Shown here piece after piece: positions 41,197 through 64,000 of a DNA stretch of 64,000 bases (within the stretch, counting starts at the first letter, position 1; every line of letters begins with the position of its first letter). The DNA is from Halomonas sp. HAL1 (GTDB lineage Bacteria; Pseudomonadota; Gammaproteobacteria; Pseudomonadales; Halomonadaceae). The translations under genes were made by a program, and so were the position numbers. The stretch covers positions 1,860,001 through 1,924,000 of the forward strand of contig NZ_CP130610.1 of the NCBI RefSeq assembly GCF_030544485.1, in the 5' to 3' direction. The notes under the pieces are model-generated. The model saw only the letters and a list, made by a program, of their open reading frames with translations. It did no database searches and was not told the DNA's origin.

Positions 41197-41221
41197 TGCT
41201 AGGTAGTTAGCACCTCTACTA

Positions 41222-42303
41222 AGTGATTCTGCATAAATTATCGCGTATAAAGAACAAAGATCCATCAGAGTAAAATACAGAACCATGTCTCGGCGCTTAC
41301 GTTTCGTTTCTTTAACACCTGACCAGCAACGTATCTTAAATGAAGCCTACCAGTACGGCGAAAAGAGAGCACTACGTCGTCGGGCCCACGCCATTCTGCT
41401 CAACCACAAGGGCCATACGATTAACCAGATTCGCGATATTATTGGGGTTAAGCGCGATACGGTATCGACTTGGTTATCCCAATGGGAAGCAGACGGTATT
41501 GAAGGTCTTCAAGACAAGCCTCGCGAAGGACGCCCGCACCTTCTCAGCGAGAGCGATCTTGCTGTGTTAGAACAACTGGTTGAAGAGTATCCCCATCAAT
41601 TGCCTGTCCTCCATGCCAAGTTTCAGGAGCAGACAGGTAACGTCGTCAGCCAGGACACGTTGCGGCGCGCGTTAAAAAAAGGCTATAGCTGTAAGCGGAT
41701 ACGCCGCTCATTGAGGGCACATCGTGACGAAGCGGATTTCCGCCATACGCAAGAGATAATCAATGTATTGAAGGAGTGGGAAGATGATGGTGAGTGCGAT
41801 CTCTATTTCTTTGATGAAGCCGGTTTCTCGCAATCATCGTCACTTCCTTATGCATGGAGCCCGATAGCCAAGCCCTGGGAAGTCACGGCCTACCCACACA
41901 GCAAACGGCTGAATGTACTGGGCTTTCTCACCAGAAAAGGTGAGTTTTTTCACCATATGACCACCGACTCAGTGACCACTGAAACCGTTATAGAAGCCTT
42001 TGATCAGTTTGCGGCACATAAAGACCCTGACGCATTCGCCGTCGTGATACTGGATAATGCCAGGATGCACCGTTCCAAGGCGTTCCAGCGCAAACTTATT
42101 GATTGGATGGCACATCGCATTCACCTGGTCTACTTGTCGCCATATTCGCCGGAGCTGAATCTGATCGAAATCCTTTGGCGCGAAATCAAATACCGGTGGC
42201 TACCGTTAACAGCCTACAGTTCGTTCGATAAGCTTTGTGAAGCGGTCAAAAAAGTATGTAATGGTTACGGCACTGATTACTCAATAACTTTTGCATAACC
42301 ACT
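41222..42303 (+). mobile_element. IS630-family insertion sequence
   Basis: The ends form imperfect inverted repeats of about 25 bp: left AGTGATTCTGCATAAATTAT and the reverse complement of the right end AGTGGTTATGCAAAAGTTAT. TA flanks both sides (41220-41221 and 42304-42305), the TA target duplication characteristic of IS630/Tc1. The single transposase gene is intact, and its stop codon lies inside the right repeat. The element is about 1.08 kb. Confidence 0.85.
41285..42298 (+). CDS. IS630-family transposase
   Basis: A 337-residue DDE enzyme. The N-terminal HTH_29 region reads INQIRDIIGVKRDTVSTWLS. The DDE_3 triad is in LYFFDEAGFSQ, VILDNARMH and PELNLIEILWREIKY. It is one uninterrupted frame, so it does not need the frameshift seen in some relatives. 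No ribosome site is evident before the start. Confidence 0.92.
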   Translation: MSRRLRFVSLTPDQQRILNEAYQYGEKRALRRRAHAILLNHKGHTINQIRDIIGVKRDTVSTWLSQWEADGIEGLQDKPREGRPHLLSESDLAVLEQLVEEYPHQLPVLHAKFQEQTGNVVSQDTLRRALKKGYSCKRIRRSLRAHRDEADFRHTQEIINVLKEWEDDGECDLYFFDEAGFSQSSSLPYAWSPIAKPWEVTAYPHSKRLNVLGFLTRKGEFFHHMTTDSVTTETVIEAFDQFAAHKDPDAFAVVILDNARMHRSKAFQRKLIDWMAHRIHLVYLSPYSPELNLIEILWREIKYRWLPLTAYSSFDKLCEAVKKVCNGYGTDYSITFA

Positions 42304-42324
42304 TATATCCTACGTGTGGTATTG

Positions 42325-50805: not shown

Positions 50806-50904
50806 GTTTGGTTAGATTTTAGGTAGTAAATAGGTGACATTCGTCAGGAACTCTTTTCTGAGGCTTCTTCATTATCGTATTTTAATTTAAATGGTAAATT
50901 GCTT

Positions 50905-51507
50905 GTGACGCTTTCGTTTAGCTACAACTCAGACCTCATTGGTGGTGGATTGATGGTGCGTGAAAGCCGTGCAGTTGCAGCGCTATTGCTGGATGAGGTA
51001 GACGAAGCACACTGGCATCAAGCCATCATCGTTGAAAACCGGCTACAGAAGAATCGCCCAGCGACAGCCAAGCGTGCAGCGCAGGCCATCCGTAAACGCT
51101 TAGAGAAACTGGAACCCTCTTTTTGGAAAGCCCTGCACGATGGAGACGATCAGCTAGCGTCACAGGTATCGTTTTGTGCTGCCATGGCACGCAACCTGCT
51201 GATGGTGGAGTTTCTTGAAAGCGTGGTGGCCGATGCGTTTTTAACGCGGTCTGAAAAGCTTCAGTCCTATCAGTGGGATGAGTTTCTTGCCGAACGTGCT
51301 AACCGCGATGCAGCGATTGCTACCTGGGCAGAAAGTTCAAGGCGCAAAATGGGTCAGGTAGTGTTTCGGATGCTGACAGAGGTCGGCATATTGGATTCCA
51401 GCCGATCACGTCGGCTTCAGTCTTTCTTGCCCCGCCCAGAGCTGAAGATGCTGCTTGAAACCCACCGCCATACCCGTTTACAAAATTGTCTTCAAAAATT
51501 GCGCTAA
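50905..51507 (+). CDS. brxA: BREX protein BrxA (DUF1819)
   Basis: A 200-residue protein of the DUF1819 family that opens the BREX type 1 operon. Family signs are FSYNSDLIGGGLMVRESRAV at the N-terminus, then AALLLDEVDE, and helical DNA-binding-like repeats. The start is uncertain: GTG 50905 or TTG 50899, since the ATG at 50891 leads to a stop. A weak non-ATG start and no Shine-Dalgarno suggest low expression. Together with brxB, brxC and pglX it places the locus in BREX, a phage-defence system. Confidence 0.85.
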   Translation: MTLSFSYNSDLIGGGLMVRESRAVAALLLDEVDEAHWHQAIIVENRLQKNRPATAKRAAQAIRKRLEKLEPSFWKALHDGDDQLASQVSFCAAMARNLLMVEFLESVVADAFLTRSEKLQSYQWDEFLAERANRDAAIATWAESSRRKMGQVVFRMLTEVGILDSSRSRRLQSFLPRPELKMLLETHRHTRLQNCLQKLR

Positions 51508-51635
51508 GCATTTATCTGTTGGAAAAACTCATTATTGAACTAATGAAAACTAAGTAGACCTTGCGGCTATGACTGTAAGCAACGTAATCTTGCCCGCAAT
51601 ATGCCCAAAACATGCCCGACATAGAGACGCTCCGC

Positions 51636-52259
51636 ATGTCACATAATGAGCAGCACCTACCACCTACCAGCGTTATGTTCCATGAGGATGACCAGCTTCG
51701 GGCACGATTAAACCAAGTCGCCGAGAAAATCACTCGACCGGATTTTTTAGCAGGCCAAGGGTTAGGTAACGAAATCGGCTTCTGGATTTTTGATTACGCT
51801 CCTGAGCACGAGCTTCAGGTACGTGCCTATCTGAACTTCCTTCCCTCGTTAATGGCGCGCCAATACGGCCATTTCAAGGTGGCCCAGGTTAACTTGCTTC
51901 ACGTGCTCAAAGACTATCTGACTGAGCGCGGCTTTCTTGATAAAGCCATTGCCATGCAGAAAAACAAAGGCGATGCAGCACTGCTTAAGGCACTGCGTGG
52001 GCCACTGCACATGGATAAGTTTGCCCCTTACCTCATCCGACACTCTTTGTCGCATGACCCTGATATCGTGCTACTAACCGGTGTCGGTAGTCTATGGCCA
52101 ATGGTACGAGCGCATAGTTTGCTGAACGCGCTGCATGGCCCGTTAGGGCATAAGCCTTTGGTACTGTTTTACCCAGGCCGCTATGACGGGCAAACGCTTA
52201 CCCTGTTTAATCAGATTAAGAGCAATAACTACTATCGCGCTTTTGCGCTCGTGCCCTAG
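51636..52259 (+). CDS. brxB: BREX protein BrxB (DUF1788)
   Basis: A 207-residue protein of the DUF1788 family. FLAGQGLGNEIGFWIFDYAP and PDIVLLTGVGSLWPMVRAHS are family landmarks, and PLVLFYPGRYDGQTLTLFNQ followed by IKSNNYYRAF closes the protein. Starts at 51612 or 51636 are possible; neither has a strong ribosome site. It sits between brxA and brxC, as is normal in type 1 BREX. Confidence 0.88.
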   Translation: MSHNEQHLPPTSVMFHEDDQLRARLNQVAEKITRPDFLAGQGLGNEIGFWIFDYAPEHELQVRAYLNFLPSLMARQYGHFKVAQVNLLHVLKDYLTERGFLDKAIAMQKNKGDAALLKALRGPLHMDKFAPYLIRHSLSHDPDIVLLTGVGSLWPMVRAHSLLNALHGPLGHKPLVLFYPGRYDGQTLTLFNQIKSNNYYRAFALVP

Positions 52260-52447: not shown

Positions 52448-55400
52448 ATGCGCATTCAAGAGCTTTTCCTCAAGCCGCTCAACCGGTCAATCAATGGCGT
52501 TGTAAAGGCTGATCAGCGTGACCAGGAAACTATCTACCAAGAGCTAGATGAGTACGTGGTCACCAATGAGTTAGAAAAGCACTTTCGCGCCTTTTTTGAA
52601 TCCTACACCACCCCGCTAGACGACCCCTCCATCGCCAACCGCGTGGGCGTCTGGGTTAGCGGTTTCTTTGGGTCGGGTAAATCCCACTTTTTGAAAACGC
52701 TCTCTTATCTGCTGGAAAATACCGAAGCTTTTGATGCCAACGGCCATGCCAAGCGGGCGGCGGATTTCTTTGACGAGCAGAAGCTGGTGGACAGCTCCAT
52801 ACGGGCTGATATCACCAACGCGGTACGCGAACCCGCCCATGTGGTGCTATTCAACATCGACAGTAAGGCCAGCTCTAACGACGATGGCAACCCCATCCTC
52901 AACGTCTTTCTGCGCGTATTTAACGAGTACCAAGGCTTTAGCTCGGATTACCCGCACATTGCCCACATGGAGCGCCACTTAGAAAAGCGGGGCGTGTATG
53001 AGCCCTTCAAGCAGGCGTTTAATGACGCCAGCGGCATGGCGTGGGAAGAGGAGCGGGACGGCTATCAGTTCTACCAAGATGACATCGAGCAAGCGATTAG
53101 CGTTGCGTTAGAGCTTTCCCCGGAAGCTGCCCATAAATGGTTTGAAGAGTCAGAAGCCAATTTTAGTGTTTCAGTGGAAAACTTCTGCCACTGGGTGAAA
53201 GAGTTTTTGGAATCCCAATCATCCACCCGGCGCATGGTGTTTATGGTGGACGAAGTCGGCCAGTTTATTGGCAGCGACACCCGCCTTATGCTCACCCTGC
53301 AAACGCTCACCGAAAACCTGGGCACGATTTGCGGTGGTCGCGCTTGGATTGTGGTGACGTCTCAGGCGGATATGGACGCAGTGCTAGGCGAAATGACCGC
53401 CTCAAAAGCCAACGATTTCTCTAAGATCGCCGGACGCTTCAAAACCCGCTTATCGCTCTCAAGCTCCAACTCTGACGAAGTCATCCGCAAGCGCCTGCTG
53501 GTGAAAACCGACCCGGCACGCGCTGAGCTGGAAGGTGTGTTTGAAGCCAAAGGCTCTATCCTGCGTAACCAGCTGACCTTTGATCGTTCCGGCCCCACGC
53601 TGAAAAACATTGAAGGCGTGGATAGCTTTATCGCCAATTATCCCTTCGTGCCGTACCACTTCCAACTGGTACAAAAAGTCTTCGAAGAGATCCGCAAGGT
53701 AGGTGCCACCGGCGCGCATCTCGCTTATGGTGAGCGCTCAATGCTCGATGCTTTCCACATGGCCGCCAAAGCCGTGCAAGAAAAATCGATTGGCGCGCTG
53801 GTGCCGATGCACTGCTTTTATACGGCGATAGAAGGCTTCCTTGATACGGCCGTAAAACGCACCATCGACCAGGCCAGCGAAAACCCCGTGTTAGAGGCGT
53901 TTGATGTCGAAACGCTGCGCACGCTGTTTATGATCCGCTATGTGGATCTTGTCAAAGGCACGGTCGACAACCTCGTTACGCTATCGCTGACTCAAATTGA
54001 CGACGACCGAATTGCTATTCGTGAGCAATTAGACGCGACCTTAGCGCGACTAGAAAAAGAGAGCCTGATTACGCGTAATGGCGATGAATATCAGTTCCTC
54101 ACCAATGAAGAGCGCGACATTACCCGCAAGATCAAAGCCACCGAAGTCACCAGTAGCGATGAGAACAAAGAGCTCTCCAGCCTAATTTTTAAAGACCTGT
54201 TGCGTGATCGCGCCAAATACCGCTACCCGTTGAACAAAACCGACTACAGCATTGGCCGCTACCTGGATGGTCACACACTAGATGGTCGCTACCAGAGTCA
54301 GCTAAGGGTAGAGGTGGTGTCACCCTTAGACGTGGAGTACGTGCAGCTTAGCGACGCGGGCTGTATTCACAAAAGCGGCGACAATGGCGGGCAGGTGCTG
54401 ATTAAGCTACCCGACGATAAGCGCTTTACCGACGAACTGCGTACGCTGTTAAAAACCGACAAGTTCATCCGCTTGAACCTATCGGCCAACGACCACAGCG
54501 TCGAGCGCATTCTGGCCGACCGTGGCCGGGAAAACCAAGAGCGTAAAAAACGCCTACGTGTTCGTCTGGAAGAAATGCTATTAGATGCAGACGCCTATGC
54601 GCTTGGCCAAAAGCTGGAACTCAACCGCAGCCAGTTAAGCACCCGCCTGGATGAAGCTTGCCGCTACCTGCTGGAAAACACCTACAACAAGCTGGGCCAG
54701 CTGACGGTGCTTAACCCAGAGCCTATGCGTGAACTGCAAGCCGTGTTAACAGCTGATGATATCGGTACGCAAAATCTTAACTTAGACGGGGAGGAGGGCA
54801 ACGCCCAGGCAGTAAAAGAGGTGGAGCAGTATATCTCGCTGCACAGCGGCGAGCCGGTGCCGCTTAACCCGCTTATCGAACGTTTTAGTAACCGACCTTT
54901 CGGCTGGCCGGAAGGCGAAACGTTGCTGATTCTAGGCCGCCTACATACCGCTGGCCGTTTGACCTTCCACACCGCAGGCCCCGCGCTCAGCGGTAAAGAA
55001 GCCTTCGAGCTGCTTAATAACGCCCGCCGGCGCAGTGAAGTGCGCATTCAGAAAAAGCGCCAAACTGAAGATGCAGTGCTGAACAAAGCCCGCAACCTCA
55101 CCAAAGACCTGTTTGGCCAGCTAGGCCCCGCAAGCGAAAAAGAGCTATTCAGCTACTATGTGGATCGCTTATCCCGCTGGCGCCGCGAGCTAGAAGCGTA
55201 CAAAAGCAAAACCGACGTGGGCAATTTCCCAGGGCGAAAAGCCATTGAAAGCTCGCTGCTGGAAGTAGAGCGGCTATTGCGCTTAGACGACAGTTTCGAC
55301 TTCTTTAAGGCAGTGGCCAGCCAGCAAGACACGCTGCTCGATTTAGAAGAAGACTACCGCGACCTAAGCGACTTCTTCACCAAGCAGCTCACCACCTGGC

Positions 55401-56140
55401 AGCAGCTGGAACAGGCGCGCGTAAGGTTTGGGGTTAACCACCTGGAGCTAGAAAAACACCCCGAGGCCCAGCAGGCACTGGCCGAGTGTGAGTGCATTTA
55501 TAGCGCCGATGCCCCCTACGCCATGTTGAACAAAGTAGATGGCCTGGTGCGAACGTTGGATGACATTAATACCCGCTTGGTCACCGAAAAACGCGAACAC
55601 GCCATTGCACGTATCGACACGCGCATCGCCAAGGTGAGCGCTGAAATTGCCAAAAGTGGTATTGGCAACGCCGAACTCAGCAACCGCTTGTTGCACCCGC
55701 TGCAGCAGCTCAAAGCGTCGGTCAATCAGTCGGTCAGCATCGCCCAGATCTACCAACTGCAAACAGAAACGGCCGTTGAGCAAGAAGAAGAGAGCCTGGA
55801 TGCGCTTCACAACGCCCAGGCTGAGGTAGCCAAGCGGCAGCCGCCCGCGCCTACGCCTGCTGGAGGCGACTCCACCGCGCCGACGGCCACCCCAGGCAGC
55901 CAACCGCCCGCAGGGCACACGGCGGCAAGAGATAAAACTTACGATCCCCACACCGCAACAGCCCCAGCAGCAGTCAATGCCCCCAAACCCGTGGCAAGGG
56001 TTCGCGTCAGCGACGTACTCAGCCGCGTGCATAGCGGTGTGTACCTGGAAAGCCAAGCGGAAGTGGATGCGTTTATGGAAGAGCTGAGAAAAGAGCTGGA
56101 AGGGTCGCTTTCAGCGGGCAAGCGGGTACAGGTGCGGTAG
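52448..56140 (+). CDS. brxC: BREX P-loop ATPase BrxC
   Basis: A 1230-residue ATPase required for BREX defence and host methylation. Walker A is SGFFGSGKSHFLK near residue 75, and a Walker B-like MVFMVDEVGQFIG follows near 268. VVKADQRDQETIYQELDEYV lies at the N-terminus. Long coiled-coil helices fill 850-1110, and the tail (about 1115-1190) is a Pro/Ala/Thr-rich linker before a final helical knob. The length is normal for BrxC. Its expression may be controlled by the structured 188-bp gap upstream. Confidence 0.93.
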   Translation: MRIQELFLKPLNRSINGVVKADQRDQETIYQELDEYVVTNELEKHFRAFFESYTTPLDDPSIANRVGVWVSGFFGSGKSHFLKTLSYLLENTEAFDANGHAKRAADFFDEQKLVDSSIRADITNAVREPAHVVLFNIDSKASSNDDGNPILNVFLRVFNEYQGFSSDYPHIAHMERHLEKRGVYEPFKQAFNDASGMAWEEERDGYQFYQDDIEQAISVALELSPEAAHKWFEESEANFSVSVENFCHWVKEFLESQSSTRRMVFMVDEVGQFIGSDTRLMLTLQTLTENLGTICGGRAWIVVTSQADMDAVLGEMTASKANDFSKIAGRFKTRLSLSSSNSDEVIRKRLLVKTDPARAELEGVFEAKGSILRNQLTFDRSGPTLKNIEGVDSFIANYPFVPYHFQLVQKVFEEIRKVGATGAHLAYGERSMLDAFHMAAKAVQEKSIGALVPMHCFYTAIEGFLDTAVKRTIDQASENPVLEAFDVETLRTLFMIRYVDLVKGTVDNLVTLSLTQIDDDRIAIREQLDATLARLEKESLITRNGDEYQFLTNEERDITRKIKATEVTSSDENKELSSLIFKDLLRDRAKYRYPLNKTDYSIGRYLDGHTLDGRYQSQLRVEVVSPLDVEYVQLSDAGCIHKSGDNGGQVLIKLPDDKRFTDELRTLLKTDKFIRLNLSANDHSVERILADRGRENQERKKRLRVRLEEMLLDADAYALGQKLELNRSQLSTRLDEACRYLLENTYNKLGQLTVLNPEPMRELQAVLTADDIGTQNLNLDGEEGNAQAVKEVEQYISLHSGEPVPLNPLIERFSNRPFGWPEGETLLILGRLHTAGRLTFHTAGPALSGKEAFELLNNARRRSEVRIQKKRQTEDAVLNKARNLTKDLFGQLGPASEKELFSYYVDRLSRWRRELEAYKSKTDVGNFPGRKAIESSLLEVERLLRLDDSFDFFKAVASQQDTLLDLEEDYRDLSDFFTKQLTTWQQLEQARVRFGVNHLELEKHPEAQQALAECECIYSADAPYAMLNKVDGLVRTLDDINTRLVTEKREHAIARIDTRIAKVSAEIAKSGIGNAELSNRLLHPLQQLKASVNQSVSIAQIYQLQTETAVEQEEESLDALHNAQAEVAKRQPPAPTPAGGDSTAPTATPGSQPPAGHTAARDKTYDPHTATAPAAVNAPKPVARVRVSDVLSRVHSGVYLESQAEVDAFMEELRKELEGSLSAGKRVQVR

Positions 56141-56285
56141 TGTTCGATGATGTTTGTTGACAGTGGCAACGACTAACGCCAAGCCTAAGCATCCCGGTTG
56201 GCAGGGTGTCGACGAGCAGGTTACACTTTAAAAATAACCCGTTCAGCCGCGTCGGGTCTGAGCGATACCGCAGAGGTGAGTCATT

Positions 56286-56546
56286 ATGCATGCCAACGTC
56301 AAGCAGCTGCGCTTGCAAACCAAAGCGTTGATTGCCGCTACCCAGCGTGGCGAGACCGTAGAGATCACCTTTCACGGCAAGCCCTGTGCCCGCCTGGTGG
56401 GGGTGGCGTCTGCCACGCCTGAAAAGCGCTCGGCCCCCAACCCGGCGTTCGGCCTCTGGGCGGATCAGGGCGAGGCAAGCGCCCAGGAGATCGACACACA
56501 AGTCCGCCGTTTGCGCGCGCCGCGCTCGTTCGAGGGCACCGACTGA
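56286..56546 (+). CDS. Phd/YefM-type antitoxin
   Basis: An 86-residue protein with the Phd/YefM DNA-binding N-terminal pattern: LRLQTKALIAATQRGETVEI then TFHGKPCARLV, followed by a disordered acidic tail that would wrap the toxin. It ends one base into the PIN toxin gene (TGATG). GAGGTGAG precedes the start. Confidence 0.85.
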   Translation: MHANVKQLRLQTKALIAATQRGETVEITFHGKPCARLVGVASATPEKRSAPNPAFGLWADQGEASAQEIDTQVRRLRAPRSFEGTD

Positions 56547-56935
56547 TGCTGGTGGACACGGATGTACTGATCTGGAATCTGCGCGGCAACCCCGCCGCCG
56601 CCCAGCGCCTGGATGACGCGCCGGGTTTCTGGCTCTCTGCCGTCACCTATATGGAACTGGTGCAGGGCATGCGCAACAAGCAGGAGCTAAGGCAGCTACG
56701 CCAGACACTGATCTACTGGCAATCAAGCATCCGCCATCTGGAAGAGGGGATATCCTCGCGTGCCATGTTTCTGGTCGAAAGCTATGCGCTCAGCCATAAC
56801 ATACAAATGGCCGATGCCCTGATTGCCGCCACCGCGATGGAGGCAGGGGTTCCTTTGCTCACCGCCAATGACCGCCATTACCGCCATATCGATGGCCTGG
56901 AAATCGACGTTTTCGCCCTGAATAGTTCGCCCTGA
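56546..56935 (+). CDS. PIN-domain toxin (VapC-like ribonuclease)
   Basis: A 129-residue PIN nuclease with the four acidic residues: VDTDVLIW, YMELVQGM, MADALIAATA and LTANDRHY. VapC toxins cleave tRNA or rRNA and are neutralised by the overlapping antitoxin. The pair lies between brxC and the AlbA_2 gene, in the same direction as BREX, so it may guard the island or be coexpressed with it. The target is unknown. Confidence 0.9.
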   Translation: MLVDTDVLIWNLRGNPAAAQRLDDAPGFWLSAVTYMELVQGMRNKQELRQLRQTLIYWQSSIRHLEEGISSRAMFLVESYALSHNIQMADALIAATAMEAGVPLLTANDRHYRHIDGLEIDVFALNSSP

Positions 56936-57041
56936 GTAAATCATCACTTGGCGCAGTAATGCCCACAATAAGCTACCGTCGCGTGTTCCAAGACGCGGGA
57001 CAGTGAGACGGAAAGCAATATAAAAAATCAACAGGCCACTC

Positions 57042-58499
57042 ATGACTGCCACAACCATTGAACAGCGGCTCAGTGAGCCAGAAGGCAAGCAGCTTGAGTT
57101 CAAGCGTGATCTGTCATCGCCCAAGCCGCTGATGAAAACCCTGGTCGCTTTTGCCAACACCGCAGGTGGCCAACTTATCATTGGCGTTGACGACGACGGC
57201 ACCGTGCCAGGTGTGGATGACCCGCTGGATATGGAAGAGCGCCTGACCAGCATGATCGCGGATGCCATTCACCCCCGGCTATTACCCAATATTGAATTGG
57301 TTAGCGTGGGTGAGCATACCCTGGTGTGTATTGAGGTGTTTTTGAGTAGCGCTCGCCCACACTTTTTCAAGGCGCTAGGCGAAGAAAAAGGTGTGCTGGT
57401 GCGGCTCGGGTCCAGTAATCGGCAGGCGGGGTTGGCACTCATTCAGGAAATGCAGCGCCAAGCGAGCGGCACTACGTTTGATGTTCAGCCCATGCCCGAG
57501 CTGAGCCGTGACGACCTTGACCAAAACGCCATACAGCATGCCTTCGGCAGCGAACAGCCGCTTGATGACAACACGTTACGCACGTTACGGCTACTGGTGC
57601 CGTATCAAGGCCGCCTAGTACCCAGTGTGGGTGGCATTCTGCTGTTTGGCCGCGAGCGCCAATGGCACTTTGAAGACGCCTGGATTCAGTGCGGGCGTTT
57701 TCGCGGCACCGATAAGGTTGAGATTTTCGATCAGGCAGATATCCACGCGCCGCTACCCCAAGCGGTAGATGACATCGAACTGTTTCTTAAAAAACATGCC
57801 TTCAAGCAGGCAGAGTTTGGGGCTATGCGCCGCCGCGATGTGTGGAGCATACCGCTGACCATCTTGCGTGAAGCAATTATTAACGCCTTGGTACACAGCG
57901 ACTACTCCCAACGCGGTAGCCCTATACGCATTGCGTTTTTTGATGACCGTATTGAGATTGAAAGCCCAGGGCTACTGATGCCCGGCATGACCATTGAAGA
58001 CATGAAACGCGGCGTTTCCATGATCCGCAACCCGGTGATTGCCCGCGTATTTCGTGAGCTTGGGCTAATTGAACAGTGGGGCAGCGGTGTAAAGCGTATT
58101 TTCGCGGAAGCCCATACCCAAGGGCTACCAGAGCCGCATATTGAAGAAATTGCCAACCGTGTGCGGTTGAGTATCCGGCTGGCAGCGCCGGTTCCTATAG
58201 AAAATCCAACATCAGTGACCCAGTCAGTGACCCAGTCAGTGACCCAGTCTGAGAATATAGAACCACTGCTCCCGCTGCTGCAAATATTAAGCGATGGCCC
58301 GCTATCATCAGGCGAGCTACGTCAACACTTGCAGCTCAAGCATCGTGCTCATTTTCGCCAACACTACCTAACGCCTGCGCTTCAGGATGAATTAATCGAA
58401 ATGACGCTGCCCGAGAAGCCCAACAGCCGCCTTCAGCAGTACCGCCTAACCCCTAAAGGCCAGCGCTTTTTGCAAGACACCCTCAAGGATTCACCATGA
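57042..58499 (+). CDS. AlbA_2 / HATPase_c_4 protein (COG2865-type) coupled to pglX
   Basis: A 485-residue protein. Residues 8-140 form an AlbA_2 (Schlafen-like) domain: LEFKRDLSSP and FANTAGGQLIIGVDDDGTVP. The middle has a GHKL ATP-binding domain, REAIINALVHSDYSQRGSPI and IEQWGSGVKRIFAEA. A tandem SVTQ linker follows, then a winged-helix-like C-terminus. Such proteins are often annotated as regulators or helicase-like and occur in defence islands, including BREX loci. The stop overlaps the pglX start by four bases (ATGA), so the two should be made together. Confidence 0.85.
   Translation: MTATTIEQRLSEPEGKQLEFKRDLSSPKPLMKTLVAFANTAGGQLIIGVDDDGTVPGVDDPLDMEERLTSMIADAIHPRLLPNIELVSVGEHTLVCIEVFLSSARPHFFKALGEEKGVLVRLGSSNRQAGLALIQEMQRQASGTTFDVQPMPELSRDDLDQNAIQHAFGSEQPLDDNTLRTLRLLVPYQGRLVPSVGGILLFGRERQWHFEDAWIQCGRFRGTDKVEIFDQADIHAPLPQAVDDIELFLKKHAFKQAEFGAMRRRDVWSIPLTILREAIINALVHSDYSQRGSPIRIAFFDDRIEIESPGLLMPGMTIEDMKRGVSMIRNPVIARVFRELGLIEQWGSGVKRIFAEAHTQGLPEPHIEEIANRVRLSIRLAAPVPIENPTSVTQSVTQSVTQSENIEPLLPLLQILSDGPLSSGELRQHLQLKHRAHFRQHYLTPALQDELIEMTLPEKPNSRLQQYRLTPKGQRFLQDTLKDSP
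58212..58247 (+). repeat. Three perfect 12-bp tandem repeats in the AlbA_2 gene
   Basis: TCAGTGACCCAG occurs three times in a row and encodes SVTQ three times in the linker between the ATPase and winged-helix parts. Unit length is a multiple of three, so copy changes would alter linker length without a frameshift. Confidence 0.9.
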
Positions 58500-61400
58500 A
58501 CACCGCCAACATCAAAAAATACGCCCCCAAAGCCCGCGCCCGCTTTATCGACACCATGACGCGCCAGGCGGCCCGTGTGGGCATTAGCCCAGATGGCAAA
58601 GGCGGTGCTGTCATTGCCCCCTTGGAGCAAAAGGGCGATGTGTTGGTGATGACCACCCAAGATGGCCAAACCCACACCGTGCCCGCCCACCTAAAGCGCG
58701 CACGGGAAGCGCTGGCGGCGTGGGTGCAGCGCGATGGTTTTACCCAAGCCATAGAGCAGACTGCCTACAGCTGGTTCAACCGCCTGTGCGCCATTCGCTA
58801 TATGGAGATTCACGGCTACCTAGACCACGGCCGCCGCGTGCTGAGCGGGGCAGGGGGCGAAGCCGGGCAGTTCCAGATTCTGGATGAGTGTTTAGAAGTA
58901 GACCTTCCAGGGCTAGACACCGCCCGCGTGCGAGAACTGAAGCTTGACGGCACCCAGGATGAAACCCTTTACCGCGAGCTGCTGCTGGCCCAGTGCCACG
59001 CCCTGCATGAGGCCATGCCGTTTCTGTTCGAACCGCTGGACGACGCCAGCGAGCTGCTGCTGCCCAACAACCTGACCAAAACCGATTCGCTGATCCGCGA
59101 GCTGGTCGAGGCCACTCCCGAAGAGGACTGGCAGGATGTAGAAGTGATTGGCTGGCTCTACCAGTTCTACATCAGCGAGAAAAAAGACCAGGTGATCGGT
59201 AAGGTGGTGAAAAGCGAAGACATCCCCGCCGCCACCCAGTTGTTCACCCCCAACTGGATCGTTCAATACCTGGTGCAGAATTCGGTAGGCCGCCAGTGGC
59301 TGCAAACCTACCCCGCATCAAAGCTCAAGGCCGAGATGCCGTACTACCTCGAGCCCGCCGAGCAGGAGCCAGAAGTGCAGGCCCAACTGGATGCCATCAC
59401 CCCGGCCAGCCTCGACCCTGAAACCATCAAAGTGCTCGACCCCGCCTGTGGCTCCGGCCATATTCTGGTGGAAGCCTACAACGTGCTGAAGGCGATCTAC
59501 GAAGAGCGTGGCTACCGCACACGCGACATCCCTAAGCTGATTCTGGAAAACAACCTGTTCGGCCTAGATATCGACGACCGCGCCGCCCAGCTGGCGGGCT
59601 TTGCGCTATTGATGAAAGCCCGAGAAGATGACCGCCGGATTCTCACCCGCAACGTGCGCCTAAACGTGCTGGCCATGCAGAGCAGCCAGCACCTAGATGC
59701 CAACACCCTTTGGAGGGATTTGAACCTGACCGGCGACTGGCACCAGGGTCAATCCCAAGGCCTGTTTGACAGCGAACAGCAAGATCCTTCCAGCAACGAC
59801 GCTACTTATAAGCTGATTGACGACTTGATTGAGCGCTTTCAGGATGCCAAGACGTTTGGCTCCCTGATTAATGTGGCCAATGAATGGGAAGCGCCGCTCA
59901 AAGCACTGCTGGAAGAGCTGACCGAGCTAAGCAATAGCGGCGATATTATGCAAAAGGCCGCCGCCCAGCGGTTAGTGTCGATGGTGCAGCAAGCCTGGGT
60001 ACTGGCGCAGCGCTATGGTGCCGTGGTAGCAAATCCGCCATATATGGGCAGTAAGGGTATGAACAAGGCACTTAAGGACTACGCGAAGAAGGCTTATCCC
60101 AATAGCAAGTCAGATATGTTTGCTATCTTTATGGAGCACGCTTTCAGCCTGCTGGCACCGCTTGGCTATAACGCCCAGATCAATATGCAGTCGTGGATGT
60201 TCCTATCCAGCTATGAAAAGCTGCGGGACTGGCTGCTTGATAACAGTACCATCATCACCATGGCCCACCTCGGCGGCAGGGCATTCGACAGCATCAGCGG
60301 TGAAGTCGTCTCTGCCACCGCCTTTGTGATGGAAAAGATCGCCAAGCCAAATTACCAAGGCGTCTACTTGCGGCTGGTGGAGGGGAAGTCTGAAGCCGAA
60401 AAGAAGGGCGCGATGCTTGAAGCCATCCAGAACCGCGACTGCAGTTGGTGCTATGACGCCAAACCGGATGATTTCAAGAAGATTCCAGGAAGTCCGGTGG
60501 CGTATTGGCTGTCAAAAGAAGCAATACAAGCATTTTCTAAGAGTAAGGAAATTAAAAAAGTAATGCCTGCTGCAGTTGGGTTGCAAACAGGAGATAATTC
60601 AAAATTTGTTAGATATTGGTATGAAGTCGATTTTGAAAAAATAGGCTTTGAAGTTGAGAGTTCTAATGAGACGGCCGATTTGGATTTCAAATGGTATCCG
60701 TATAATAAAGGCGGAGACTTTAGAAAGTGGTATGGAAATCGAGAGTTTATAGTTGACTGGAAAAATGATGGAGAACAAATAAGGAATTTTAAGGACGATA
60801 AAGGAGGATTAAGATCACGACCACAAAATACTAAAAATTATTTCAAGCCGTCCATATCATGGTCGGATGTAACCTCTGGAGATGTGGCTTTTCGCTATTA
60901 TGATAAAGGATTTGTCTACGATGTGACCGGAATGTCAGCGCAAAGTGAATCTGAAGATTTGATGAAGAAAGTCCTGGCCTTGTGCAATTCTTGTGTTATC
61001 AATTGGGTAGTTAAGTCATTGAATCCGACTTTACATTTCCAGGCTGGAAATTATCACTCTTTGCCTTATATAGGTGCTGCTGTAAATGGTTCTTCTATAG
61101 ATCTTGTGGATCAGTGTATTAATCTTTCTTTGCAAGATGAGACTGCCTATGAAACGTCTTTTTCTTTTAAATCAAGCCCGCTGAAAGAAAAAAAAGGGAA
61201 AGGTATTTTTTTAAATTATTTTGAATGGCGTAAAGAGTGTAGTCAGGCAGCTGAAAAGCTAAGAGAGCTTGAGACTATAAATAATAAATATTTTTTGAGT
61301 AAGTACTCACTTGAAAAAGAAGTGGAGCCTGAGGTCTCTTTCAATAAAATCAGCTTAAATGGTAATCCCTATTATCGCTATAGCGGAAATCGTTCAGGAG

Positions 61401-62191
61401 AAGAATTAGAAACTTGGTTTCAGTGCGACACCCTCAAGGAGTTGGTCAGCTATGCCATCGGCTGCATGATGGGTCGCTACTCGTTGGATAAGCTAGGCCT
61501 GATTCTCGCCAGCCAGGGTGAAACCGTCCGCGATTACCTCGCTCAGATCCCCGAGCCAAGCTTTGCCCCGGATGATAACGCCATCATCCCGCTCACCGAT
61601 CAGGAATGGTTCCCCGACGATGCCACCAACCGCTTCCGCGATTTTTCGCGCACTGCTTGGGGCGAAGAGAACCTTCATGAAAACCTAGATTTCGTCGCTG
61701 AAAGTCTCTGCCTGCACGCCATCAAACCCAAGAAGGGTGAGGCTGCGCTGGAGACCATCCGCCGCTACCTCAGCACCCAGTTCTTCAAAGATCACCTGCG
61801 CACCTATAAAAAACGCCCCATCTACTGGCTGTTTTCTTCCGGCAAACAGAAAGCTTTCGAGTGTTTGGTCTACCTGCACCGCTACAACGAAAGCACCCTC
61901 GCCGAGATGCGCACCGATTACGTTATCCCGCTCACCACCAAGCTCACCAGCTACGTTGAAAAGCTAGAGCAAGACAAAGAGGCCAGCACCTCCGCCGCCG
62001 AAGCCAAGGGCATCGAAAAAGAGCTAAGCAAGCTCTATAAACAACAAGCTGAACTCAACACCTTCGACGAAAAACTCCGCCACTACGCCGACCAGCGCAT
62101 CTCGCTGGATCTGGATGACGGCGTAAAGGTGAATTATGGGAAGTTTGGAGATTTGTTGGCGGAAGTGAAGCAAGTGACTGGAAATAAATAA
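58496..62191 (+). CDS. pglX: BREX type 1 adenine-specific methyltransferase PglX
   Basis: A 1231-residue N6-adenine methyltransferase that marks host DNA so BREX spares it. Motif I is VLDPACGSGHILVEAYN near residue 320, and motif IV is VVANPPYMGSKGMN near 513. The region from about residue 673 to 976 is a likely target-recognition part and is markedly AT-rich, while both ends are GC-rich. The final helical part is coiled coil (VEKLEQDKEASTSAAEAKG). The frame is intact. It is coupled to the preceding AlbA_2 gene. Confidence 0.94.
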   Translation: MNTANIKKYAPKARARFIDTMTRQAARVGISPDGKGGAVIAPLEQKGDVLVMTTQDGQTHTVPAHLKRAREALAAWVQRDGFTQAIEQTAYSWFNRLCAIRYMEIHGYLDHGRRVLSGAGGEAGQFQILDECLEVDLPGLDTARVRELKLDGTQDETLYRELLLAQCHALHEAMPFLFEPLDDASELLLPNNLTKTDSLIRELVEATPEEDWQDVEVIGWLYQFYISEKKDQVIGKVVKSEDIPAATQLFTPNWIVQYLVQNSVGRQWLQTYPASKLKAEMPYYLEPAEQEPEVQAQLDAITPASLDPETIKVLDPACGSGHILVEAYNVLKAIYEERGYRTRDIPKLILENNLFGLDIDDRAAQLAGFALLMKAREDDRRILTRNVRLNVLAMQSSQHLDANTLWRDLNLTGDWHQGQSQGLFDSEQQDPSSNDATYKLIDDLIERFQDAKTFGSLINVANEWEAPLKALLEELTELSNSGDIMQKAAAQRLVSMVQQAWVLAQRYGAVVANPPYMGSKGMNKALKDYAKKAYPNSKSDMFAIFMEHAFSLLAPLGYNAQINMQSWMFLSSYEKLRDWLLDNSTIITMAHLGGRAFDSISGEVVSATAFVMEKIAKPNYQGVYLRLVEGKSEAEKKGAMLEAIQNRDCSWCYDAKPDDFKKIPGSPVAYWLSKEAIQAFSKSKEIKKVMPAAVGLQTGDNSKFVRYWYEVDFEKIGFEVESSNETADLDFKWYPYNKGGDFRKWYGNREFIVDWKNDGEQIRNFKDDKGGLRSRPQNTKNYFKPSISWSDVTSGDVAFRYYDKGFVYDVTGMSAQSESEDLMKKVLALCNSCVINWVVKSLNPTLHFQAGNYHSLPYIGAAVNGSSIDLVDQCINLSLQDETAYETSFSFKSSPLKEKKGKGIFLNYFEWRKECSQAAEKLRELETINNKYFLSKYSLEKEVEPEVSFNKISLNGNPYYRYSGNRSGEELETWFQCDTLKELVSYAIGCMMGRYSLDKLGLILASQGETVRDYLAQIPEPSFAPDDNAIIPLTDQEWFPDDATNRFRDFSRTAWGEENLHENLDFVAESLCLHAIKPKKGEAALETIRRYLSTQFFKDHLRTYKKRPIYWLFSSGKQKAFECLVYLHRYNESTLAEMRTDYVIPLTTKLTSYVEKLEQDKEASTSAAEAKGIEKELSKLYKQQAELNTFDEKLRHYADQRISLDLDDGVKVNYGKFGDLLAEVKQVTGNK
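60515..61425 (+). other. AT-rich block inside pglX (candidate exchanged specificity domain)
   Basis: A hand count of one line here (60601-60660) gives 17 G/C of 60; a line in the upstream part of the same gene (59581-59640) gives 38 of 60. Boundaries lie near 60515 and 61425, where GC-rich codon use stops and resumes without breaking the frame. This is the region between the methyltransferase core and the C-terminal helices. Confidence 0.75.
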
Positions 62192-62226
62192 TTAAAACTC
62201 ATCGGCTTTCACGCAGGGATAGAATT

Positions 62227-63810
62227 ATGTTTTGGGTAATACTGATAATAATTGTGCTTTTCATTGGCTTTGTCATTGATAAAGGAACACCATCAAAATA
62301 TTCAGAAAGGGACAGAAACAGAGAGGGGGATAAAGGAAAACTTCCTTCTGGCCATCAAGTCTCTCTTCCTAAAACCGAAGCAACGACATCTGTCCCCAAA
62401 GGTCAATTAGAAAAAAAGGGCTCTGCAGAAGAAAAGTGTGTGCCCGCGCCAAGCGAAGAACCAAAAGCAAGGAACGCCATAAATAGAGATGCAGAAAGAG
62501 CGATTGCTGATGATCTTGCAAAATCGCATGGTGGCGAATATCTTCTAGCTGAAAAAATCACAGAATCAGTTGCTAAATATATAAATAGCCAAGAGTCTGC
62601 GATAGAGTTTGTTCTTCAAGAGCTAGATGGTGCAAGCAAAGGAAGCGATGAAGCTAGAACATTTGCTAAATCACTTGGATTTTTGGAAGGTGAATACGCG
62701 GGAGCTTTACGCAAACAGGCTAATGAAGATGTCGAAAATGCCCAACAGGCTCTTTTAAAGTCTTCGATAAGTCTTTCGGTCTCGCCAGAGCTAACAACAA
62801 GGCTTAGGCTCTTTAATGTCAAAAACATTATAGAAAAATGGTGTCTTAATTCACCGGAAATTAAAAAAAACCGTCTGCTAAAGGCTTTGAGAGAGATTGC
62901 GCTTGATGATGTTAATTTAGTCCCTTCCCTTGATGCCAGCCTGCCAATCATTAAAACAGCAAGCATAAAGCATATTTCTAATAGAAATAAAAATCTTGAT
63001 TTCGCAAAGACATTATTGACTGAGCTTCGCCAATCTTTGAATAAAAGTCCCAGGGAGATTATACTTTTAGCCGTTCCTGAAATTTTGGAAGACTATGAGA
63101 GTAGACAAACCAATCCAGAGTCTCCCGAGAAAAGTGTTCAAAAAGCGCAGAAACCCGAAGCAACAATTGAGCTGGCATATGAGTCGGATATAAAGTCGTT
63201 TGTTGAAGAAAGGGAGATACCTTATCTTGTTCATTTTACTGACTTCAGAAATTTGCCAGGGATCATGTCTGAAGGGCTTGTGCCAAGGTTGGAGCTAGAA
63301 ACTGCTGGACGAGGCTTTTATTACAACGATGAAATGCGACTTGATAGAGTAAAGGGATCTATCTCAACATCAATAGCATTTCCAAACTATAAAATGTTTT
63401 TTAGATATAGGCAGCAAGCCAACGTACGGAGGTGGGCACTCTTAATCATTGATAAGTCTGTTTTCTGGGAAAATGAGTGCTTATTCTGCGCGCACAATGC
63501 GGCTGACAGAAGAATAATTCATGCGAATAAAAGCTATCTAGCAAGTCCTGCCGCACTAGAAAAAATGTATGACATTGAGGCCGGAAATCAAAAAAGAGAT
63601 TTTAGCTTGTTGAAGTCGTATGATCCAACTGACCCTCAGGCTGAAGTTTTAGTGCTTTCTACTATCTCTCCTGATAAAATTCATACTGTAGTGTTTGATT
63701 CGCTGAGCTCGAAAGAGCGCTTTTCCCAGTACTATCCGATGAAGAAGGCAGTTGTTGATACTGCCTTCTTTTCTTCAAGAGACTATGTGAGAAGAAGGCA
63801 GGTAATTTGA
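62227..63810 (+). CDS. Membrane-anchored DarT-like ADP-ribosyltransferase (DarT1 type)
   Basis: A 527-residue protein in an AT-rich stretch. Residues 2-18 are one membrane helix (FWVILIIIVLFIGFVI), then a charged linker and a helical region of unknown fold (about 95-330). Residues about 335-525 match the DarT (DUF4433) fold: LVHFTDFRNLPGIMSEGLVP with the NAD-binding His, GSISTSIAFPNYKMFFRYRQ, WALLIIDKSVFW and the catalytic-Glu segment PQAEVLVLSTISPDKIH. DarT toxins ADP-ribosylate DNA bases; DarT1 acts on guanosine and pairs with a NADAR antitoxin, which follows at once. Most DarT proteins are about 210 residues, so the anchor and middle region are unusual. Confidence 0.7.
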   Translation: MFWVILIIIVLFIGFVIDKGTPSKYSERDRNREGDKGKLPSGHQVSLPKTEATTSVPKGQLEKKGSAEEKCVPAPSEEPKARNAINRDAERAIADDLAKSHGGEYLLAEKITESVAKYINSQESAIEFVLQELDGASKGSDEARTFAKSLGFLEGEYAGALRKQANEDVENAQQALLKSSISLSVSPELTTRLRLFNVKNIIEKWCLNSPEIKKNRLLKALREIALDDVNLVPSLDASLPIIKTASIKHISNRNKNLDFAKTLLTELRQSLNKSPREIILLAVPEILEDYESRQTNPESPEKSVQKAQKPEATIELAYESDIKSFVEEREIPYLVHFTDFRNLPGIMSEGLVPRLELETAGRGFYYNDEMRLDRVKGSISTSIAFPNYKMFFRYRQQANVRRWALLIIDKSVFWENECLFCAHNAADRRIIHANKSYLASPAALEKMYDIEAGNQKRDFSLLKSYDPTDPQAEVLVLSTISPDKIHTVVFDSLSSKERFSQYYPMKKAVVDTAFFSSRDYVRRRQVI

Positions 63811-63811
63811 C

Positions 63812-64000
63812 ATGGCTAATCGACCTGTTTTTGTGCCATTAAGGAATAATGGTGTGCCAGGTGTAAAAGTTCTGGATGTGGACTTTCAGTGGTTTCCTGG
63901 GATGGCTTCTTCGCAAAAAAGAAAGTCAATAAAATCACTTCATCATTCAACTGAAGCGCTCGGTGTATCACCAATACTAGAGGTTTCAAGTAAGTCTGAA
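63812..64000 (+). CDS. DarT1-associated NADAR antitoxin family protein (3' truncated by window edge)
   Basis: The first 63 residues are visible: MANRPVFVPLRNNG, then VDFQWFPGMASSQKRKSIKS and ILEVSSKSE. This matches the start of proteins annotated as DarT1-associated NADAR antitoxins, which remove ADP-ribose from DNA guanosine. It begins two bases after the toxin stop. The NADAR catalytic domain should lie past the window edge, so the role is inferred from this end and the toxin next door. Confidence 0.7.
   Translation, partial: MANRPVFVPLRNNGVPGVKVLDVDFQWFPGMASSQKRKSIKSLHHSTEALGVSPILEVSSKSE

Follow-up and report, generated by a model that had tools for sequence, protein, structure and literature searches.

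A DarT1-NADAR toxin-antitoxin pair as probable defence cargo of a type 1 BREX operon in Halomonas sp. HAL1

Why should a DNA-modifying toxin with a predicted membrane helix lie inside a bacteriophage exclusion (BREX) operon? The question is raised by a stretch of 64,000 nucleotides from Halomonas sp. HAL1 (contig NZ_CP130610.1, positions 1,860,001 to 1,924,000 of the forward strand; G000:C1:1860001-1924000 in our numbering), hereafter the window. Near its right edge, a gene for a DarT1-type ADP-ribosyltransferase is followed by a NADAR antitoxin gene that continues into the adjoining DNA, which was read as L002 (G000:C1:1923001-1942000; window coordinate = L002 coordinate + 63000). DarTG systems, according to work attributed to LeRoux et al. 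in 2022, reportedly defend bacteria against phages. The pair is likely to be a toxin-antitoxin module of the DarTG1 (DarT1-NADAR) kind that is complete in itself and forms exchangeable defence cargo of the slot between pglX and pglZ in a type 1 BREX operon.

The DarT1 toxin and its NADAR antitoxin

The pair comprises the following features.

62227..63810, + strand: gene for a DarT1 toxin with a predicted membrane anchor, 527 aa, ATG start
62230..62283, + strand: coding sequence for the one membrane helix predicted, at the N-terminus (residues 2-19; hydropathy, AlphaFold and a conserved MFW start)
62284..62484, + strand: disordered linker (residues about 20-86; AlphaFold predicted local distance difference test score, pLDDT, <50 over residues 20-87)
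62485..63111, + strand: mobile module of the helical N-domain, unmatched in Pfam (residues about 87-295; AlphaFold and hhalign)
63181..63804, + strand: DarT1 ADP-ribosyltransferase domain (residues 319-526; catalytic residues H336, R371, D373, M390, N424, E473)
63812..64000, + strand, ending at 64510 (L002:812-1510): NADAR antitoxin gene, starting in the window (PF22397)

The toxin gene is an uninterrupted open reading frame (ORF), and its product is predicted to ADP-ribosylate guanine in the manner of DarT1 and to be toxic. The C-terminal third, which the first-pass annotation had taken for a DNA ADP-ribosyltransferase, matches the DarT profile PF14487 (E=5.6e-13) at residues 336-505, and a DarT fold is thus found within residues 335-525, where it had been placed. 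The best solved relative is the DarT1 of E. coli C7 (8baq; phmmer E=2.6e-25, residues 322-505), and the domain lies nearer to DarT1 than to the other DarT proteins. Alignment to 8baq, whose sequence is that of the E152A crystal form, places the C7 catalytic set H17, F18, R52, D54, S63, M71, N104 and E152 at H336, F337, R371, D373, S382, M390, N424 and E473 of the toxin, all of which are invariant in 12 aligned sequences. Two C7 DNA contacts are conservatively changed (Y73 to F392 and K74 to R393). Eight full-length relatives of the toxin are 64-68% identical to it over the whole length. The annotation had counted 330 residues, starting with one membrane helix, ahead of the enzyme; the helix is supported by prediction, and the length is corrected to 318 residues, with the DarT domain beginning near residue 319.

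The antitoxin gene begins with an ATG at 63812, one base past the darT stop. A NADAR-type antitoxin had been anticipated beyond the window edge, and the DNA there completes a gene for a 232-aa protein with a full NADAR-DarT1 domain (PF22397, E=5.4e-88, residues 2-213), which also matches the G. lovleyi NADAR 8bat (E=3.4e-70). Motif spacing and alignment to the G. lovleyi protein, with no direct alignment to the C7 NADAR, identify the catalytic residues E89, K96 and D172. The catalytic Glu, Lys and Asp of the C7 NADAR are E88, K95 and D171 (PMC11543638).

The front half of the toxin

The N-terminus of the toxin holds a hydrophobic stretch with a Kyte-Doolittle mean of 2.57 across 19 residues. 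AlphaFold models a helix at residues 2-19 (pLDDT 95 at residues 1-10 and 78 at 11-20), and all 12 aligned sequences, among them the HAL1 protein, start with M1-F2-W3. The 30 residues after the helix carry seven lysines or arginines against four aspartates or glutamates. The toxin is predicted to be an integral membrane protein, with a helix that is kept among its relatives.

Known DarT1 toxins had been described in the first-pass annotation as short and soluble, which holds for the characterised C7 enzyme (~208 aa) and fails for the family at large. Among 80 DarT1 loci, kept from 100 that were confirmed in a scan of genome contigs, a hydrophobic stretch above threshold precedes the DarT domain in 15, taking the longest start; this fraction may be inflated, since the query set included membrane DarT1s, and its start rules are laxer than those of a first count in which seven loci gave no start. 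The same helix test was passed by 19 of 86 rows, consisting of the 80 loci, the HAL1 toxin, stretch L095 of genome G210 and four viral contigs. A DarT1 tree was built from 82 rows, leaving out the short L015, L071 and L081 as well as L097, whose DarT figures are the same as those of L007. Helix-bearing rows number 18 here; a single clade of 25 rows (support 93/98, slightly below the mark for starred branches) takes in 17 of them, and the remaining one, L009 of Methylophaga aminisulfidivorans, stands apart from it. The helix label needs seven changes on this tree, of which starred branches force at least five, so helices have been gained or lost several times.

Behind the linker, the model shows helices from residue 87, and its 10-residue blocks from 111 to 290 have pLDDT values of 68-96. 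This N-domain has no match in Pfam, and hhalign relates residues 111-280 to a stand-alone family (prob 99.2, E=7e-20). The domain occurs alone or fused to leucine-rich repeat (LRR), tetratricopeptide repeat (TPR)/Sel1-type, MORN or TerB modules, or to a PD-T7-5 defence protein; counting DarT, its partners are of at least six kinds. Its alignment leaves out the short P0069 and P0070. A short hydrophobic-basic N-terminus of MFGMFKKK-like pattern fits 73 of 108 N-domain proteins, a total in which P0072 and P0073 (probably one protein) both count. The N-domain looks to be the new part of the system. As a tentative possibility, it may be an adaptor that has so far gone unnamed and moves among bacterial conflict systems, placing interchangeable effectors or repeat sensors at the inner membrane and detecting infection there. 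Placement would be achieved by a true helix in DarT1 and by the short hydrophobic-basic N-terminus elsewhere, and membrane-tethered DarT1s would make up a toxin class whose members modify phage DNA where it enters or is replicated.

The helix and N-domain are unlikely to form a receptor in the strict sense, in which a phage product at the inner membrane (such as a holin, an injected protein or a replication complex bound to the membrane) is captured by the N-domain, and the DarT1 domain is activated as a direct result. The mobility of the N-domain across its partners lends some support to this idea and to the earlier suggestion of a phage sensor at the membrane; the recurrence of membrane helices, mostly in one DarT1 clade, also speaks for the receptor. 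However, the membrane DarT1s of genomes G202 and G210 keep the helix, but their DarT domain is preceded by 108-110 residues in all, which leaves no room for an N-domain, and no N-domain match was found in any of the 80 DarT1 loci, where the front 318 residues of the toxin matched nothing apart from the helix region of L006 (Vreelandella andesensis, NZ_RZHG01000002.1). The N-domain is therefore not essential.

The slot between pglX and pglZ

The operon around the pair contains brxA, brxB, brxC, pglX, pglZ and brxL together and is a complete BREX-1 operon.

50899..51507, + strand: brxA (PF08849, E=2.7e-47)
51612..52259, + strand: brxB (PF08747, E=9.2e-38)
52448..56140, + strand: brxC (NF033441, 1250 bits)
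56286..56935, + strand: Phd/YefM-like and PIN genes, cargo of the brxC-pglX interval (PF02604, below cut-off; PF01850)
57042..58499, + strand: AlbA_2/Schlafen-like gene, cargo of the same interval (PF04326, PF13749, PF21247)
58496..62191, + strand: pglX, the BREX-1 methyltransferase (NF033452, 1511 bits)
L002:1621-2511: LRR gene, after the NADAR gene
L002:2766-4391: gene for a 541-aa protein, after the LRR gene
L002:4470-7100: pglZ (type A)
L002:7211-9307: brxL

As first read, darT (from 62227) lies directly behind pglX, and the pglZ and brxL genes looked for downstream of the antitoxin gene are both present, past the LRR gene and the 541-aa gene. The four slot genes have a GC content of 35-40%, against 51-55% for brxA, brxB, brxC, pglX, pglZ and brxL. 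No promoter signal above chance was detected in 61500-64000 (four found, 3.6 expected), and darT starts 35 bases past pglX; its expression thus probably depends on the BREX operon, which suggests that BREX transcription drives the darT-NADAR pair.

The interval was compared across relatives, with G and L numbers denoting genomes and stretches of them. A PglZ search of 275 genomes of the family gave matches at E<=1e-50 in 28, and 19 stretches were taken; PglZ matches at ~33% identity and partial matches in G203 and G217 were left out. With L095 and the HAL1 locus added and L149, which has no pglX, removed, the set holds 20 intervals from 19 genomes. L148 and L151, both from G248, count as two intervals, each cut by a contig end. 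The pglX-pglZ gap is a cargo slot: ORFs, mostly of defence-related families, occupy 19 of the 20 intervals, and the sole empty one (L150, 191 bases) belongs to a PglZ of just 39% identity. Cargo was named by Pfam on 20 representatives, four of which had no match or weak ones only, and membership was assigned by cluster. GmrSD occurs in six intervals, dynamin-like GTPase pairs, NERD/TOTE and PDDEXK_4 in three each, TIR in two, and SIR2 with HerA, Fic, TIR with a SLATT membrane effector, and KwaB in one each. Two intervals have a PARIS-like layout, in which an AAA ATPase is paired with a 250-aa protein that had no match, while L135 and L138 hold none of the named families. At L133:12574-13152 (minus strand) and L136:6887-7464, residues 1-87 of pglZ are joined to the last 105-112 residues of pglX between two cargo blocks. 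The junction suggests a scar, with cargo blocks stacked by recombination between the pglX and pglZ ends; the L133 and L136 slots are 91% identical and so probably record one event. In this family, the BREX-1 pglX-pglZ gap is a hotspot rich in whole defence systems and a place in which to seek new ones.

DarT1-NADAR occupies two of the 20 intervals, those of HAL1 and G210. Between these two genomes, BrxC (part), PglZ and BrxL are 91%, 94% and 96% identical, whereas DarT and NADAR are 51% and 63% identical, a pattern that fits two separate captures of the pair. The G210 DarT1 has 318 aa and a membrane helix. Between pglX and this gene, L095:10858-11385 (minus strand) encodes a protein of 175 aa that has two hydrophobic stretches and may be a partner of the toxin. 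In the sister genome G202, a 316-aa membrane DarT1, a NADAR gene and a gene for a 98-aa protein lie near an integrase-like gene (by eye); in G210, NADAR is followed by a gene whose 94-aa product shares 69% identity with that 98-aa protein. The PglZ search gave nothing at E<=1e-50 in G202, so this kind of module exists both inside and outside BREX.

The wider sample points the same way. NADAR matches accompany 78 of the 80 DarT1 loci (none in L030 and L078, a weak one in L084). BREX core genes were found in one locus, L009, and the other 79 had none in the stretch examined, a count that makes BREX occurrence a lower bound, since the BREX-free loci are often short-flanked and were tested with the Brx and Pgl proteins of the HAL1 operon only. 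DarT matches also occur in 26 plasmid records. In all four examined, a gene of 687-708 bases directly follows darT, and the (incomplete) gene table lists nothing under the names BREX, Brx or Pgl in the 12 kb around it. A BREX component would be a regular presence in BREX-1 loci, and the pair was found in two of 20. Judged from these comparisons, DarT1-NADAR is most likely self-contained cargo and not a component of BREX.

Several observations weigh against this view. PglX, which adjoins darT, is merely 73% identical between HAL1 and G210; divergence therefore reaches beyond the slot, and the cargo may have moved with part of pglX and not alone. The Methylophaga locus L009 has a long membrane DarT1 and NADAR just upstream of brxA, and two of the three DarT1 genes in the 275 family genomes lie in the BREX slot; DarT1 could have some preference for BREX. 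The BREX count over the 80 loci is a lower bound. Regulatory coupling of darT to BREX is possible. Lastly, the orientation of the helix is supported by charge alone.

The first-pass annotation had proposed an added abortive-infection arm of BREX. In its full form, DarT1-NADAR would be a true back-up arm, in which the toxin is freed and kills the cell once PglX or BrxC has been blocked by an inhibitor from the phage, or once the phage has been stalled by BREX, as proposed for PARIS and the inhibitor Ocr. We regard this as rather improbable. The pair does lie within the operon and is probably co-transcribed with it, two seemingly separate captures ended in the same slot, and BREX loci often contain nucleases as back-up effectors (PMC12839542). 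Of the proposed arm, position is what stands; the same slot accepts many unrelated systems, a like module exists in G202, where no BREX-1 PglZ was found at the cut-off used, BREX genes are absent from the stretch examined in 79 of the 80 loci elsewhere, and the sequence offers no sign of BREX control. PARIS of the Salmonella BREX island, moreover, was inactive under the conditions tested (PMC11341690).

A role mainly as an addiction module, by which loss of the locus ends the supply of NADAR and DarT1 poisons the cell, would protect the BREX locus or its cargo block. The toxin-antitoxin form, the embedded position and low GC of the pair, its plasmid relatives, and the PIN/Phd-like pair in the same operon agree with it; a long N-domain and a membrane helix are left unexplained, and DarTG systems defend against phage (PMC12255303). 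Addiction and defence are compatible, and addiction as the main role appears quite doubtful. That the insertion is decaying cargo without function is highly improbable despite a slot in flux and a likely recombination scar in two relatives, as both genes are intact with their catalytic residues and the eight full-length relatives of the toxin are conserved end to end.

Other features of the locus and its relatives deserve mention. The 541-aa slot protein has two N-terminal hydrophobic stretches by eye, and its C-terminus matches the PADLOC candidate PDC-M72B in a region that is PD-(D/E)XK nuclease-like by eye. The LRR slot gene recurs at L135:13428-14321 (60% identical), in a slot without DarT1. 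In L095, L135 and L136 the last gene before pglZ encodes a fructosamine kinase (the L135 copy matches PF03881 at E=7.7e-52), which is an unusual neighbour for defence genes. ORFs of 106-129 aa with a shared GRWRI(T/I)WME-type start form a family that occurs in six of the 20 slots (L134, L138, L139, L140, L145 and L147) beside varied cargo, and the copy tested had no Pfam match. The brxC-pglX interval (window 56140-58496) is a second variable slot, whose gene content differs in part in relatives (L134, L135, L137 and L138, for example). Identical IS630-like transposase ORFs flank the region in opposite orientation (window 41220-42305 and L002:12408-13421), and the genome holds eight identical copies.

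Working model and known systems

In DarTG systems, phages are stopped by DNA ADP-ribosylation that the antitoxin reverses, with the trigger stated to be unknown (PMC11481870), and toxin-antitoxin systems in general act through loss of a labile antitoxin (PMC12255303). We take this as the most likely mode for DarT1-NADAR here. In the uninfected cell, NADAR would strip ADP-ribose from guanine at the pace at which DarT1 adds it. Infection would tip this balance, and DarT1 would then modify guanine in single-stranded DNA, phage DNA included, such that replication stops and infection is aborted. The two front elements are the new parts, and for their roles we offer inferences. The membrane helix may keep the enzyme at the cytoplasmic face of the membrane, reducing damage to the nucleoid and favouring membrane-near DNA, where phage DNA enters or replicates, and the N-domain may serve as a protein-binding or sensing adaptor. 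BREX would provide transcription and a home, with BREX and DarT1-NADAR acting as separate layers. A membrane-anchored branch of DarT1, with one line that bears an exchangeable front domain, makes it testable how infection frees DarT from its antitoxin.

In the parts of the literature examined, characterised DarT toxins are not described as membrane proteins. No report of a membrane-anchored DarT, or of DarT1 inside BREX, was found in the literature searched, which was mostly without subscription papers. A 2026 survey of BREX lists nuclease effectors, including Schlafen and PIN types; in its main text, the strings adp-ribos, dart and nadar have no matches, and no ADP-ribosyltransferase is among the auxiliary effectors named (PMC12839542). 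Defence candidates with a NADAR domain often bear separate extra domains (PMC13092281).

Nested defence systems have clear precedents. BrxU lies between brxC and pglX in the BREX island of E. fergusonii pEFER (PMC8565348), and PARIS lies in that of Salmonella D23580 (PMC11341690). Both resemble the HAL1 locus in placing a second defence system within BREX-1, and differ in its kind: a type IV restriction enzyme (BrxU) in one, PARIS in the other. In the active RptR-RMS-DarTG-M48 island of E. coli E2348/69, DarTG2 lies between hsdS and hsdR (PMC12255303), which similarly sets a DarTG pair between the specificity and nuclease genes of a DNA-modifying defence operon, whereas here the pair is DarT1-NADAR and the operon BREX-1. 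With respect to PD-T7-5 (PADLOC PDLC04110), one protein, P0167, bears a relative of the N-domain ahead of the PD-T7-5 effector; this effector differs from DarT1. The closest counterparts of the pair itself are the DarTG1 systems of E. coli C7 and Geobacter lovleyi (PMC11543638). Unlike the C7 DarT1 of about 208 residues, the HAL1 enzyme has a front of 318 residues that contains the predicted membrane helix and the helical N-domain, and, unlike those systems, the pair sits within a BREX operon. What is new here is the form of a known kind of module: a DarTG1 pair whose toxin is predicted to be tethered to the membrane and bears a mobile front domain, and which lies as probable cargo in BREX-1.
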